From an uncultured Pseudomonadales bacterium (GTDB lineage Bacteria; Pseudomonadota; Gammaproteobacteria; Pseudomonadales; Pseudohongiellaceae): DNA of 64,000 nt. Within the stretch, counting starts at the first letter, position 1. Every line of letters begins with the position of its first letter. This document shows positions 55,766-61,925 of this stretch, piece after piece. Below the pieces are notes generated by a model. That model had not been told where the DNA came from and ran no database searches. It saw only the letters and a program-made list of their open reading frames with translations. The stretch lies in assembly GCA_949372635.1 (NCBI GenBank), contig CASIAB010000008.1, forward strand, positions 124,001-188,000. The letters are read 5' to 3'. The position numbers were made by a program, and so were the translations under genes.

Positions 55766-55929
55766 ATGAAAACCAGCTTAATCGTGCTGTTTCCAGGTAT
55801 CGCAATGGCGCCGGCACTTTCAATTGCCTCTGAGTCAGCAGCTCTTGAGCAAAGAAAGTATCAAGAATCATCCAAGAAAACTGTAAAATCTGTCACCAAC
55901 TAAGTCAGATCGGCCCAGAGCAAAACTTG
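55766..55929 (+). pseudogene. Cytochrome c remnant (signal peptide plus CxxCH in shifted frame)
   Basis: An ATG at 55766 follows a very good ribosome site (GGAGAGGAGC) and opens a signal-peptide-like 45-codon ORF (MKTSLIVLFPGIAMAPALSIASES) that ends at 55903. In the neighbouring frame the bases 55882-55896 read CKICH, a heme c binding motif, in the context QENCKICHQLSQIGPE, as in class I cytochromes c. A small frameshift between about 55845 and 55870 and loss of the rest of the domain where the convergent PLP-enzyme gene ends would explain the picture. It is therefore a truncated remnant. The short peptide may still be translated, but it cannot bind heme. Confidence 0.6.
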
Positions 55930-57021
55930 CTAATCTGCAGAAATACAGGCGAGAGCCTTCGAAAATTCTTTTTTGCCAAAACCCACACGAAAGTAATCCC
56001 CTTCTATACTGAATAGCTCTCCGGGTAGAACTAGCACATCCTTCTCGAACCAAGAATCGAGCAGAGGCTTAAGAGGCTCACTTGAATGCACTAAGCCCAG
56101 CATACCCGCTTCCGGTCTATGCCAGCTCAAAGAGTTGTTGTTAGCAACGAAACCATCAAACAATTCAATATTCTCGCGTACAATTTCATTATTACGCTTG
56201 ATAAGCGCATCAGCTTTCTGCATTACAAAACAGGCCACCTGCTCATCGAGCTGCGACTGACAGATACTGTTGTAGGTTTTCAAGTCACGAATCAATTTGC
56301 TTAGCTTTTCGTTTCTCGTCATCACCCAACCGATGCGAACTCCGGGTAATCCAAAGGTCTTAGAGAGCACATTCGCTAGTATGGCTTTTTCGTATTTCAG
56401 TACATTTAACTGACAGCCAATTCCGGAAAAATCCGAGAACGCGAATACATCATCAGAAATTAGATACAGATCATGCTCTTCACAAAGAGCAATTAGACTA
56501 TCTACGAAGCCTTGGTCTAGCAGCATGCCAGTTGGATTGTGCGGAGAATTTATAACTATTCCTTTCGTACGCTCACTGACCTGCGCAGCGAAATCTCCAA
56601 TGGATGGCTGCCATCGATTTCCAGAATTGAGCTCTACTGGCTTGAATACGCCGCCAAAGCACGCGGGAAGATCAGAGAGTGATGGATAGCAGGGCAGCAT
56701 TCCGATCACCTCATCGCCGGGCTTCAGAATGCAGGCCATGATAGAGAACAGGCCCTCCTCTGTACCACTAAGCACAGTGATGTGGTCGATACCCAGTTCT
56801 GGGTAGAGCTGCTGATACAAATTATAGATACCAGAACGGAGATCATCTCTGCCCTCTACACTGCCATATATCAAAGGTACTGACGCTAAAGCGGCGATCT
56901 CATCAACACTCAAAATATCTTGCAGAGTCGCCGTCGCCCCGCAGGCATCGCTTAGGTTATAGCGGGCACGCCTCGGCAACTTTTCATAAAATTCATGGTG
57001 CTTCATTGCACGAATTTTCAT
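55930..57021 (-). CDS. PLP-dependent aminotransferase-fold enzyme, candidate ovothiol C-S lyase (OvoB role)
   Basis: A 363-residue fold-type I PLP enzyme: VLSGTEEGLFSIMACILKPGDEVIG, NSPHNPTGMLLD for cofactor binding, ISDDVF with the pyridine-contacting aspartate, the Schiff-base lysine in NVLSKTFGLPGVRIGW, and the carboxylate-binding arginine in YFRVGFG. It lies 12 bases downstream of ovoA on the same strand. In ovothiol synthesis OvoA makes 5-histidylcysteine sulfoxide and a PLP lyase (OvoB) cleaves it to 5-thiohistidine. Position and fold make this enzyme the natural candidate. An ordinary aminotransferase cannot be excluded from sequence. Confidence 0.8.
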   Translation of the reverse strand: MKIRAMKHHEFYEKLPRRARYNLSDACGATATLQDILSVDEIAALASVPLIYGSVEGRDDLRSGIYNLYQQLYPELGIDHITVLSGTEEGLFSIMACILKPGDEVIGMLPCYPSLSDLPACFGGVFKPVELNSGNRWQPSIGDFAAQVSERTKGIVINSPHNPTGMLLDQGFVDSLIALCEEHDLYLISDDVFAFSDFSGIGCQLNVLKYEKAILANVLSKTFGLPGVRIGWVMTRNEKLSKLIRDLKTYNSICQSQLDEQVACFVMQKADALIKRNNEIVRENIELFDGFVANNNSLSWHRPEAGMLGLVHSSEPLKPLLDSWFEKDVLVLPGELFSIEGDYFRVGFGKKEFSKALACISAD

Positions 57022-57033
57022 AGGTGAGGCCGT

Positions 57034-59175
57034 CTAGCGCTTACGCCAAATTGTCATTTGAGCCACTGTATGCTGATGCTTGCGAGCTGTCTCGCGGATC
57101 ACAAAGGGCACGTCTACGGCCTCTTCAAAATCGAAGCTGTCTGAGAGCTGTTGTTTAAGCGCGTCCAGAGTACTAAAGTTTTCACCATTCACTTTTACGC
57201 CCCCTAGCCAATTAGACTTATCGGTATATTCTTCGAGCCAGGTATAAGGTGAAGTCAAGACCAACAAGCCACCGGACACTATACGAACTTGTATGTCTTT
57301 CAGGAACATCGCAGGCTCATAGAGCCGGTCAATTAGATTGCCGGCGAAAACCACATTGTAGTTAGTGAACTGTGGCTTCAGGTTGCAAGCGTCACCTTGT
57401 AAAAAATCAACTCGGTCTTTCACATCGTCATAGCCCAATTTATCCAGTAAGACTTCTCGATACTCGACGATATCGCCCTCGACTGGAAGCGTATAGCGCA
57501 GCCGATTGTGTGCCTGCAACTTCGCTCCCTGCTGCACGAAACGCGCAGAAAAATCTAACGCATCCACATGCTGAAAATTCTTCGCCAACTCAAATGAGGA
57601 CCGACCTACCGCACAACCCAAATCGAGAGCTCGATCTGTAGCGATACTGTTCGCTTGAACATGAGTCATGAGCGTCTGCACGCACGCGACCGGGAAATTT
57701 TGCACAGAGAAATATTCATTGCCATAGTGGAACTCACAGTACTGCGCAATCAACTCATCTGTTTCATAAACATTATCTTGCGCCTGTGTCTCAGGCTCTT
57801 GCTCAGATATAACCATTCTAAATCCTGCGTGTTGAAAAAAGTGTCGGCGAAATGCGTAGCGCGATGACGCAAGGGTTTCGTTCCCTGTAGATATCCAAGA
57901 CCCACCCTTAATCAAATTATGCTTGCCATCAAAAGTCGGCGTCGAGAAATCGTCATACCAAGGATGTACATTGAAGCCTGGATACCCATCGATAGGTGAT
58001 TCTGTCCATTGCCAGACATTGCCAGTGACATCATACAACCTTCCATGCCGGTTTACCGTCACTGGGCAGGACGAGGCATACTGGTCTAAATTAATATTGC
58101 CCTCGCCGGAACCCTCTCCCAATTCTGACAGACGCAGCGCAGACCATTCAGCCTCCACTGGCAATCTCACCGGCTCACCAATGCATTCCCGCATCCAATT
58201 GCAGTAGGCTTTCGCCTCCAGGTAATTCACCTCGACCGGCCAATCCATCGGCAAGGGCATTTCCGAGAACAGATTCCTCTGCAGAAACTTCCCGCTCAGT
58301 GTAGTTCGCCAGAATTTCGGGTGCTGTGATTGGGTGTAGTCCAACCACTGCCTGCCTTCTGCTGTCCAGTAGCGAGCTTTCTTATAACCCCATGCCTGCA
58401 CAAATTTCAGGAAGTCCTGATTACTTACCAAGGTCGTAGCGACCTTAAATTGCTCTAACTTCTGTTCATCGTAACCGTACTCGTTATCCCAACCGTAGCT
58501 ACGATCACTATCACTCTTGCCGAGCTTTACCACAGTCGCAGGTATCGACAGCCATTCAACAGCCGGCGCGATACCTGCCTCTGTGCAAACTGGCCACGAT
58601 TCGGCTCGTGTCGCATCAATAAGATCCAGCGGCAACATCCGCATGATCACAGACGAGGTTTCAAGATGAATCCGCTCATGCTCAATGCCCATCAAGACTA
58701 ACCATGCCGGGCATTGCTGAGTGATAGGCAGCGTGATCTCCATGGATTTGATGAAGGCACAGATTCGCGCCTTGACCTTGTCTCGGTATTCTTTAACGAT
58801 CCCTCTTGTCGGCCAGTCATAGTGAGCGGAGTCCAAATCATCCCAGGACATCTCATCGACACCGATGGCAAACATGGCCTCCAATTCAGAATCTACACGC
58901 GCGTCAGTAAATTGAGCCAATATCATCTTATTCACATAGAACGTAGCCGTATGCCCGAAATAGAAGATCAGAGGGTGCCGCAAGGACTCCGCCGCGGTGT
59001 ACAAGGCCTCATCCTTAAGTGGAGAGAACAGAGCCTCATACTGCTCCCAGGTAGAGACGAAATAATCTAACAGCTCTTGCCGCTTGGCCTCGACATTTTC
59101 ACCGTGGAGGGATATTGGACGGGATGTTGGTAGAACTTCATACGATATTGCATTCTTACTTGATAGGGACTGCAC
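57034..59175 (-). CDS. ovoA: 5-histidylcysteine sulfoxide synthase/5-thiohistidine N-methyltransferase OvoA
   Basis: OvoA is the key enzyme of ovothiol synthesis. It joins cysteine to histidine with oxygen on a non-heme iron, and its C-terminal domain methylates the thiohistidine. The 713 residues match the bacterial three-domain form: a DinB-like N-terminal domain with the iron-binding HxxxHxE (EHERIHLE, near residue 170) and an upstream histidine in FGHTATFY, a formylglycine-generating-enzyme-like domain (about 210-450, with YDVTGNVWQWTESP and GFRMVISE), and a class I methyltransferase with ALDLGCAVGRSSFELAK. The GTG start at 59173-59175 follows AGGTGA. It is read between an MFS transporter (upstream) and a PLP enzyme (12 bases downstream). 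Confidence 0.95.
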   Translation of the reverse strand: MQSLSSKNAISYEVLPTSRPISLHGENVEAKRQELLDYFVSTWEQYEALFSPLKDEALYTAAESLRHPLIFYFGHTATFYVNKMILAQFTDARVDSELEAMFAIGVDEMSWDDLDSAHYDWPTRGIVKEYRDKVKARICAFIKSMEITLPITQQCPAWLVLMGIEHERIHLETSSVIMRMLPLDLIDATRAESWPVCTEAGIAPAVEWLSIPATVVKLGKSDSDRSYGWDNEYGYDEQKLEQFKVATTLVSNQDFLKFVQAWGYKKARYWTAEGRQWLDYTQSQHPKFWRTTLSGKFLQRNLFSEMPLPMDWPVEVNYLEAKAYCNWMRECIGEPVRLPVEAEWSALRLSELGEGSGEGNINLDQYASSCPVTVNRHGRLYDVTGNVWQWTESPIDGYPGFNVHPWYDDFSTPTFDGKHNLIKGGSWISTGNETLASSRYAFRRHFFQHAGFRMVISEQEPETQAQDNVYETDELIAQYCEFHYGNEYFSVQNFPVACVQTLMTHVQANSIATDRALDLGCAVGRSSFELAKNFQHVDALDFSARFVQQGAKLQAHNRLRYTLPVEGDIVEYREVLLDKLGYDDVKDRVDFLQGDACNLKPQFTNYNVVFAGNLIDRLYEPAMFLKDIQVRIVSGGLLVLTSPYTWLEEYTDKSNWLGGVKVNGENFSTLDALKQQLSDSFDFEEAVDVPFVIRETARKHQHTVAQMTIWRKR

Positions 59176-59265
59176 ATTTCACCTACTTTTAAAAAATATT
59201 CCCTGTAGTACGCCATAACTAGCTGCTCAGACCAGCCAAGCACCTTATTTATTTCCAACTGGGTT

Positions 59266-60639
59266 TTAACGTCTAGAGAGAACTGCGCTTAGAGGTTTTA
59301 TCGATGCTCGCCCTAGCAGCAAGACAATTAGGAAGAGTGCCAAAAAGTAGACAGGAAAGCCGCGCAGAGCATCCAAGAATATGGCATCACGAAGGGCCTC
59401 CTCGGGCACTGTGCCTTCTTGCTGCGCTCGCAATAGCGCCACATAAGCAGTGTATAGAAGACTCGCAAATCCAAGCCCCAAATTTAAGGCTAGTCCCTTG
59501 AAGCTGAGAACCGTCGCCCTATGTACAGAATCAACTTCCTTATTGATGTAATAACTAGACTGAAACTGCACCATCCCCATCATCGCGAACGCGCCAACAG
59601 CGAAAATTACACCGTAATATGGAATAGCCAAACCAAGCCCAAGCAACCACTGCATTAAAAGAAAAGAGAGTGTTAAAAAGTTGAATAGCGGCGAGTGGTT
59701 TGTAACAAGATAACGAGACAATATCGCATTCACCATCCCCACTAAAGACATGCCTGCCCCGATAAATCCGAACCAACTCACAGGTATATCTATAACGCGG
59801 TAGTATTCACTGGCAAGAACCACAAATTGTCTACCCACACTGTCCAAGGCCAGCGCCGCCAGTATGACAAACAACACAAACCGGTGGTTAATAGTCCATT
59901 TCGCGGCAACTACTATTTTACGAAAAGGATTTAATAGAAAATTCCCTGTCAGTTGCTGCGAGTCGGAGAGTTGGTCCTCGCCGACATCAATATCATGAAA
60001 CCCTAAAGCGGTGCCGAGAACGATAAACGAGGTCATCAGCGTTAATATTATCGGCAGACGGATAACGAGATTGCTGGACAACTGCCATTGCGGATCTATG
60101 GCCGAAAGCAAACCATTCACCATGTTCGAATCATAGGCGAATGCCCCAAGAATCATTGTCATGAAAAACCCGATGGAAACAACTTGCGTCGTGCGCTGTA
60201 AGATTTTTGCCCAATCGTCTTCGCGCCCCAGAGCCTTTAGCGAGTCATAGGCTAATGCCTCATCGGCTCCACTTGCAGCGGCTTCAGACAAACCGGAACA
60301 AATTCTGTTGGCAAGAAACAGGGGGAATAGAAAAGGCGATGCGCCAATCGGCGCAAATACGATCAAAGCCATCTCGACCACCATCATGATCGCCGCAAAA
60401 ACCACCAAACGCTTACGACCGACGATATCCGCCAACGCACCTGAGGGCACTTCCGCCAGCACTATAGTAAGTGCCCATACAATATTAAGAATGGCAAACT
60501 GCTCTAGTGTCAGTCCATAGTCTAAGAACAACACGGTAAATACTGGATAGTAAAAACGAGCGGAATAGAACAGCCGAAAAATAATAAAGCGACGCAGATT
60601 CCCCTGCAATTGTGCAGTACTGAGTTTTGATGATGCCAT
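59266..60639 (-). CDS. MFS transporter upstream of ovoA
   Basis: A 457-residue, 12-helix major facilitator with the loop motif PSGALADIVGRKRLVVFAAIMM after helix 2. It is 90 bases upstream of ovoA on the same strand with no clear terminator in between, so co-transcription is possible. Export of ovothiol or uptake of a precursor would fit, but this is inference from position. The middle contains a long soluble loop (about 220-245). Confidence 0.85.
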   Translation of the reverse strand: MASSKLSTAQLQGNLRRFIIFRLFYSARFYYPVFTVLFLDYGLTLEQFAILNIVWALTIVLAEVPSGALADIVGRKRLVVFAAIMMVVEMALIVFAPIGASPFLFPLFLANRICSGLSEAAASGADEALAYDSLKALGREDDWAKILQRTTQVVSIGFFMTMILGAFAYDSNMVNGLLSAIDPQWQLSSNLVIRLPIILTLMTSFIVLGTALGFHDIDVGEDQLSDSQQLTGNFLLNPFRKIVVAAKWTINHRFVLFVILAALALDSVGRQFVVLASEYYRVIDIPVSWFGFIGAGMSLVGMVNAILSRYLVTNHSPLFNFLTLSFLLMQWLLGLGLAIPYYGVIFAVGAFAMMGMVQFQSSYYINKEVDSVHRATVLSFKGLALNLGLGFASLLYTAYVALLRAQQEGTVPEEALRDAIFLDALRGFPVYFLALFLIVLLLGRASIKPLSAVLSRR

Positions 60640-60832: not shown

Positions 60833-61925
60833 ATGAACAGTTTATCGATAACTCAACAGCGGGCAGCAGCCTCATTGCAATCCATGTTTATAGGAGACTC
60901 TTTATCCATGCCTGTGCACTGGTATTACAACCTAATGGATATTTATAAACAGTTCTCCGGAGGGATCACCAAGCTTGAAGCCGCTCCTAAGCGCCATCCT
61001 TCATCGATCATGTCACTTCATTCCACCAAGCAAGGCGGGCGTAATGCGCGTAATTCCAAAAGATCTCAGGCCGAAATTGTGGGCGACGTGATACTTAAGG
61101 GTAAGCGACAGTTCTGGGATCAATCAAATCAACACTATCATCAGGGTATGCGCGCTGGGGAAAATACTCTTAATGCACACTGCGCCAGAGCCACAATGAG
61201 AACTCTCGCAGCTAACGGCGGACACTACAATGAGGACCTATTTCTTAATGCCTACATCGAACTAATGACAGCCGACCCGGCATTGCATCCAGATACATAT
61301 GCAGAATCCTATCATCGGGGATTTTTTGCGAACTTGTCTGCTGGTAAAAATCGCAATAAGTGCGGCGCCGTGACACATGATACAGCATCTATTGGAGGCC
61401 TAGTAACAATCGCTCCCATTTTGATATCTGAACGAGTGCGTGGCACTTCACTTGAAATCGTCCAAGCCATCTGTCACAAGCATTTGCAACTTACTCACCC
61501 AGACGAATATTTGGCGAAAGTTTGCAGCGACTATGTCGGACTACTAGATGCGCTACTGTTTCGAGTGGAAGCGGTCTCCGCTCAAAAAATAATAGCCACC
61601 TGGGCTAAGCGTAGCATCAGAATGGCTATGCCTGAGTTACTGAAGCAAAGTACATTCCGACAATGACGTTGTAGGCCGCCTGTTCTCTTCAGCTTGCTAC
61701 ATAACTGACTCTTGGCCCAGCGTACTTTATCTCGCTTACAAGTACGCAGAACAACCGAAGGCCGGCCTACTCGCGAATGCTAATCTCGGTGGTGATAATG
61801 TGCATCGCGGAACTGTGCTGGGGGCAATTTTGGGACTCGCGACCAACAACATTCCACATGAGCTGTATGATGAATTGCTGGATAAAGATCTTATCGAAGA
61901 AGAAATAGCTGTACTGCTAAACTGA
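60833..61925 (+). pseudogene. ADP-ribosylglycohydrolase family protein, frameshifted
   Basis: The 277-residue ORF of the track has the N-terminal part of an ADP-ribosylglycohydrolase (GDSLSMPVHWYYNLMDIYKQF, then GRNARNSKRSQ and THDTASIGGLVTIAPILI). It stops at TGA 61664-61666. The next frame continues at once as DVVGRLFSSACYITDSWPSV, then LLANANLGGDNVHRGTVLGAI, the family's C-terminal metal-binding region, to a stop at 61923-61925. A net shift of one base near 61660 explains it. Members remove ADP-ribose from proteins or nucleic acids, or act as crystallin-like proteins. Without the C-terminal metal ligands the short product should be inactive. Confidence 0.78.

Follow-up and report, generated by a model that had tools for sequence, protein, structure and literature searches.

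The segment at positions 55930-59175 of the window, by which we mean the whole 64,000-nucleotide stretch of DNA analysed here, quite likely represents a two-gene cassette for ovothiol A, comprising OvoA and a PLP enzyme in the role of OvoB, beside a resident efflux-like MFS protein with another substrate. Ovothiol is an antioxidant, and the host is a marine bacterium with an ordinary ovoA and a probable, slightly unusual ovoB. In the proposed pathway OvoA would join histidine and cysteine into 5-histidylcysteine sulfoxide (a function assigned on strong homology), the PLP enzyme encoded 12 bp downstream is predicted to cleave this sulfoxide to 5-thiohistidine, which is the OvoB role, and the C-terminal domain of OvoA would, by homology, N-methylate 5-thiohistidine to ovothiol A. 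Within the uncultured genus of the host, a single small clade appears to have acquired the cassette directly downstream of the MFS gene, and the two may share a transcript there, although the MFS protein most likely handles a different substrate. The coordinates are collected in Table 1.

Table 1. Features of the putative ovothiol locus, in positions of the window
Feature	Position	Strand	Product	Description
ovoA	57034..59175	-	713 aa, GTG start	5-histidylcysteine sulfoxide synthase fused to thiohistidine N-methyltransferase
candidate ovoB	55930..57021	-	363 aa	fold-type I PLP enzyme of the PRK07324/GntC/VioD-like group; Schiff-base lysine K221 (SKT)
MFS protein	59266..60639	-	457 aa	efflux-like, motif A GALADIVGRK
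ovoA-PLP cassette extent	55917..59266			blastn of the window against the ovoA-less L176, L177 and L178

The genes are transcribed in the order MFS, ovoA, PLP gene, with gaps of 90 bp and 12 bp, and the ORF coordinates confirm the three genes, their common strand and spacing as described in the first-pass annotation. A terminator-like site was looked for in the MFS-ovoA gap and none was called there, so co-transcription is possible.

The central gene had been read as a complete, three-domain OvoA, and this reading holds, since the protein passes both the TIGR04344 model of the sulfoxide synthase region (607.6 bits, cut-off 400) and the TIGR04345 model of the N-methyltransferase region (332.3 bits, cut-off 170), and the solved OvoA 8khq aligns to it over nearly its full length with 796 bits. 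Its DinB_2, FGE-sulfatase and methyltransferase domains occupy residues 39-173, 206-455 and 515-655, respectively. In an alignment of 11 sequences, H165, H169 and E171 of the HERIHLE motif (HxxxHxE), which we take to be the iron-site residues, are invariant, and H74 and the SAM motif are invariant or nearly so. All three domains are present at full length with their catalytic motifs kept, and no notable difference from known OvoA was seen. Characterised members of the family make 5-histidylcysteine sulfoxide and methylate 5-thiohistidine (PMC12631010, PMC9103826).

The suggestion that the neighbouring PLP enzyme is OvoB is supported by its linkage to ovoA and its position in the tree. Orthologues, defined by at least 70% identity, were found in 10 of the 137 family genomes sampled and lie directly behind ovoA in all ten. 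In a genome of another family of the same order (G021), the last 4 bases of ovoA are shared with a PLP gene whose product is 38% identical, and this protein (L372) is sister to the clade of the window enzyme with support of 100/98. Further relatives stand behind ovoA in an Alteromonas sp. and in Lysobacterales, and among 321 genomes sampled across the class, three more linked ovoA-PLP pairs came to light (G441, G572 and G514). Clustering with plain aminotransferases in a tree had been named as a result that would refute the OvoB reading; instead, the window enzyme groups with further PLP enzymes encoded next to ovoA and with a small number of relatives from the same branch that lack this linkage, apart from the plain aminotransferases of its own genome. 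The enzyme is thus probably OvoB, with a lyase activity predicted from sequence and gene context. The same class-wide sample also holds several similar PLP proteins in genomes where ovoA was not detected, so this branch is not exclusive to ovothiol. Three such relatives (L394, L395 and L401) lie beside a gene that by eye looks to be of the ornithine cyclodeaminase type, which suggests another pathway for them.

As regards its family, the enzyme matches Aminotran_1_2 (Pfam PF00155) with an E-value of 3e-35 and is closest in sequence to three named groups, in each case well below the cut-off: PRK07324 (NF005593; 223 bits, cut-off 476), GntC (NF041364; 214 bits, cut-off 415) and VioD (TIGR03947; 153 bits, cut-off 391). 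In a predicted model with a pLDDT of 87, 3op7 and GntC are the nearest folds; fold type I is matched and the Schiff-base lysine is invariant in the alignment. The window genome encodes its true PRK07324 aminotransferase as a separate gene (537 bits against the same cut-off of 476), and the window enzyme is, on sequence grounds, a diverged relative of it. What sets the window enzyme apart from these families, besides its linkage to ovoA, is a Phe at position 193, where the D-x-V-Y motif has its Tyr. This Tyr, which most aminotransferases retain, may, judging from aspartate aminotransferase, be relevant to the choice between transamination and elimination. It is absent from all 22 ovoA-linked members of the branch (20 with Phe, 2 with Ser), mostly kept by the nearest unlinked relatives, and kept by true PRK07324 enzymes, including that of the window genome. 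The Tyr-to-Phe change and the PHNP motif are also seen in the unlinked relatives L400, L401, L405 and L406, and in the tree some unlinked genes are nearer to the window clade than some linked ones; neither motif nor linkage therefore proves lyase activity.

PatB family C-S lyases share with the window enzyme both fold type I and the loss of the motif Tyr, for which they have His, and in other bacteria they often lie directly behind ovoA. They nevertheless form a separate and well-supported branch, and the window enzyme reaches only 76 bits with the PatB model TIGR04350 (cut-off 340), so that the OvoB candidate is assigned to the PRK07324/GntC/VioD-like branch and not to the PatB branch found behind ovoA in many other bacteria.

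We think it unlikely that the PLP enzyme is instead a transaminase, or has some other activity on histidine, cysteine or thiohistidine, with the lyase step carried out by a PatB-like protein encoded elsewhere in the genome. Such a reading could draw on the nearest named families being an aminotransferase and two cyclases, on a PatB-like protein that the window genome does encode (302 bits, cut-off 340) and that could supply the lyase step, and on the description of the characterised OvoB as a broad-specificity lyase (PMC12631010). It sits poorly, however, with the strict linkage to ovoA in several families, with the loss of the Tyr of true PRK07324 enzymes, and with the many ovoA-adjacent PLP genes elsewhere that are C-S lyases by family.

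Beyond the window, the PLP enzymes adjoining ovoA fall into separate branches, namely PatB, a YbdL type and the PRK07324/GntC-like branch to which the window enzyme belongs, and these are unrelated subfamilies. PatB C-S lyases are found beside ovoA in Nitrosomonas, Methylophaga, Geomonas and others, whereas most of the window's family has a longer type of OvoA, encoded divergently from a YbdL-type methionine aminotransferase. This long form measures about 760-840 aa and shares 35-39% identity with the OvoA of the window; with the divergent YbdL-type gene it was recorded at L224-L231, L248-L251, L254, L255, L260 and L261, and is common to much of the family; within one genus at least three OvoA types occur. 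The YbdL-type aminotransferase, weighed as a possible third class of OvoB, was set aside because its position says little about function: the window genome has the same gene type away from ovoA.

The OvoB of Erwinia tasmaniensis is the characterised enzyme (PMC9103826, PMC12631010), and the window enzyme resembles it in role, as a PLP enzyme paired with OvoA and predicted to perform the same step. The two differ in gene context, since the window PLP gene adjoins ovoA whereas no adjacent PLP gene was present at the Erwinia and Pantoea ovoA loci examined, where the neighbours are asnC-type, mioC-like and mnmG-like genes (named by sequence recognition). In a search of Erwinia, Pantoea and Rouxiella genomes for a PLP enzyme either linked to ovoA or similar to that of the window, the best matches elsewhere were ordinary PRK07324-like or YbdL-like proteins, and no report of the window's PLP type was found in the open-licence literature. 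It is about as likely as not that OvoB denotes a role and not a single family, a role for which at least two fold-type I branches (the PatB type and the PRK07324/GntC-like type with the Tyr-to-Phe change) were independently recruited beside ovoA, the window holding the second, uncharacterised type. Family models now call such proteins aminotransferases or give them no name, and a second kind of OvoB, if true, would aid in predicting which bacteria are able to complete ovothiol synthesis.

The MFS protein scores 31.8 bits with MFS_1, just below the gathering score of 33.4, and all 13 aligned orthologues match that model (best 2.7e-16). A profile search of the family against solved structures returned NorA alone (E 0.014), and a structure model built from a 3-row alignment has a pLDDT of 37. 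With MFS efflux proteins of the HP1165 and NorA types it shares motif A and a weak N-terminal similarity, but the matches are weak, with a score of 42 bits where the cut-off is 700. The orthologue group is sharply bounded, every strong match being at least 59% identical, and is confined to one family: none of the 21 ovoA-bearing genomes sampled in the order outside the family carries it.

It had been proposed that this protein may export or import ovothiol or a precursor, which would be a new transport function. That the MFS gene, ovoA and the PLP gene work together as a single operon, in which the MFS protein transports ovothiol or 5-thiohistidine, is in our assessment very unlikely, even though the genes share a strand, the 90-bp gap has no called terminator, and the MFS gene adjoins ovoA in the six species with enough contig (6/6) of one small clade (G000, G362, G342, G367, G363 and G348). 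The co-occurrence check suggested at the outset was carried out on the 137 family genomes, in which the MFS orthologue is present in 48, ovoA in 75 and both in 40; ovoA is thus found in 40 of 48 genomes with the MFS gene and in 35 of 89 without it (raw Fisher p = 7e-7), an association that is not distinguishable from shared ancestry in a pairing test of low power. For that test 98 genomes were placed in an rpoB tree, and the phylogenetically independent pairs averaged 2.3 in the same direction, 0.9 in the opposite direction and 6.9 with no difference.

Against transport there is also the evidence of carriers in which the genes are separate. Eight of the 48 MFS carriers are without ovoA, the nearest relatives among them: at the same locus, G295, G323 and G324 keep an MFS protein of 88-90% identity but have neither ovoA nor the PLP gene. 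With a completeness of only 84% for G295 and G323, an ovoA elsewhere in either could have been missed. Conversely, G297 and G318 carry ovoA and the PLP gene but not an MFS gene of the window type. The other carriers have the MFS gene in varied ovoA-free neighbourhoods, several of them conserved, and in most carriers it is unlinked to ovoA. Since close relatives keep the MFS gene without ovoA and the PLP gene, it is probably a chance neighbour and not an ovothiol transporter; a resident bystander outside ovothiol metabolism is most likely, while a role specific to the clade is possible, given the adjacency in all six of its species and the low power of the pairing test. The transporter claim, though tempting, is not supported, and no ovothiol transporter was found in the open-licence literature.

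The boundaries of the cassette are clean at the nucleotide level: homology to the ovoA-less loci extends to the MFS stop codon (59267), then breaks off, and restarts behind the PLP gene at 55916 (blastn). In G342 the next gene after the MFS gene, ovoA and the PLP gene is the one that stands immediately behind the MFS gene in ovoA-less species, an order as expected of an inserted cassette, though loss in the ovoA-less species is also possible. Among the MFS loci compared, an ADP-ribosylglycohydrolase-like ORF (60833-61666, plus strand, in the window) occurs only in species with ovoA beside the MFS gene; the window copy has 277 aa and looks truncated beside its counterparts of 363-387 aa in L172 and L175.

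A second ovoA type was observed in six species of the same genus (L217, L218, L219, L220, L221 and L223), with a gene downstream for a PLP enzyme from the same branch as that of the window and a same-strand gene for a membrane protein of 592-610 aa upstream, at gaps of 46-192 bp in five species and with an overlap, as called, in one. The one membrane protein scanned, that of L220, is an ABC exporter. Although the arrangement may be plain synteny, the membrane protein is a stronger candidate for a transporter than the MFS protein.
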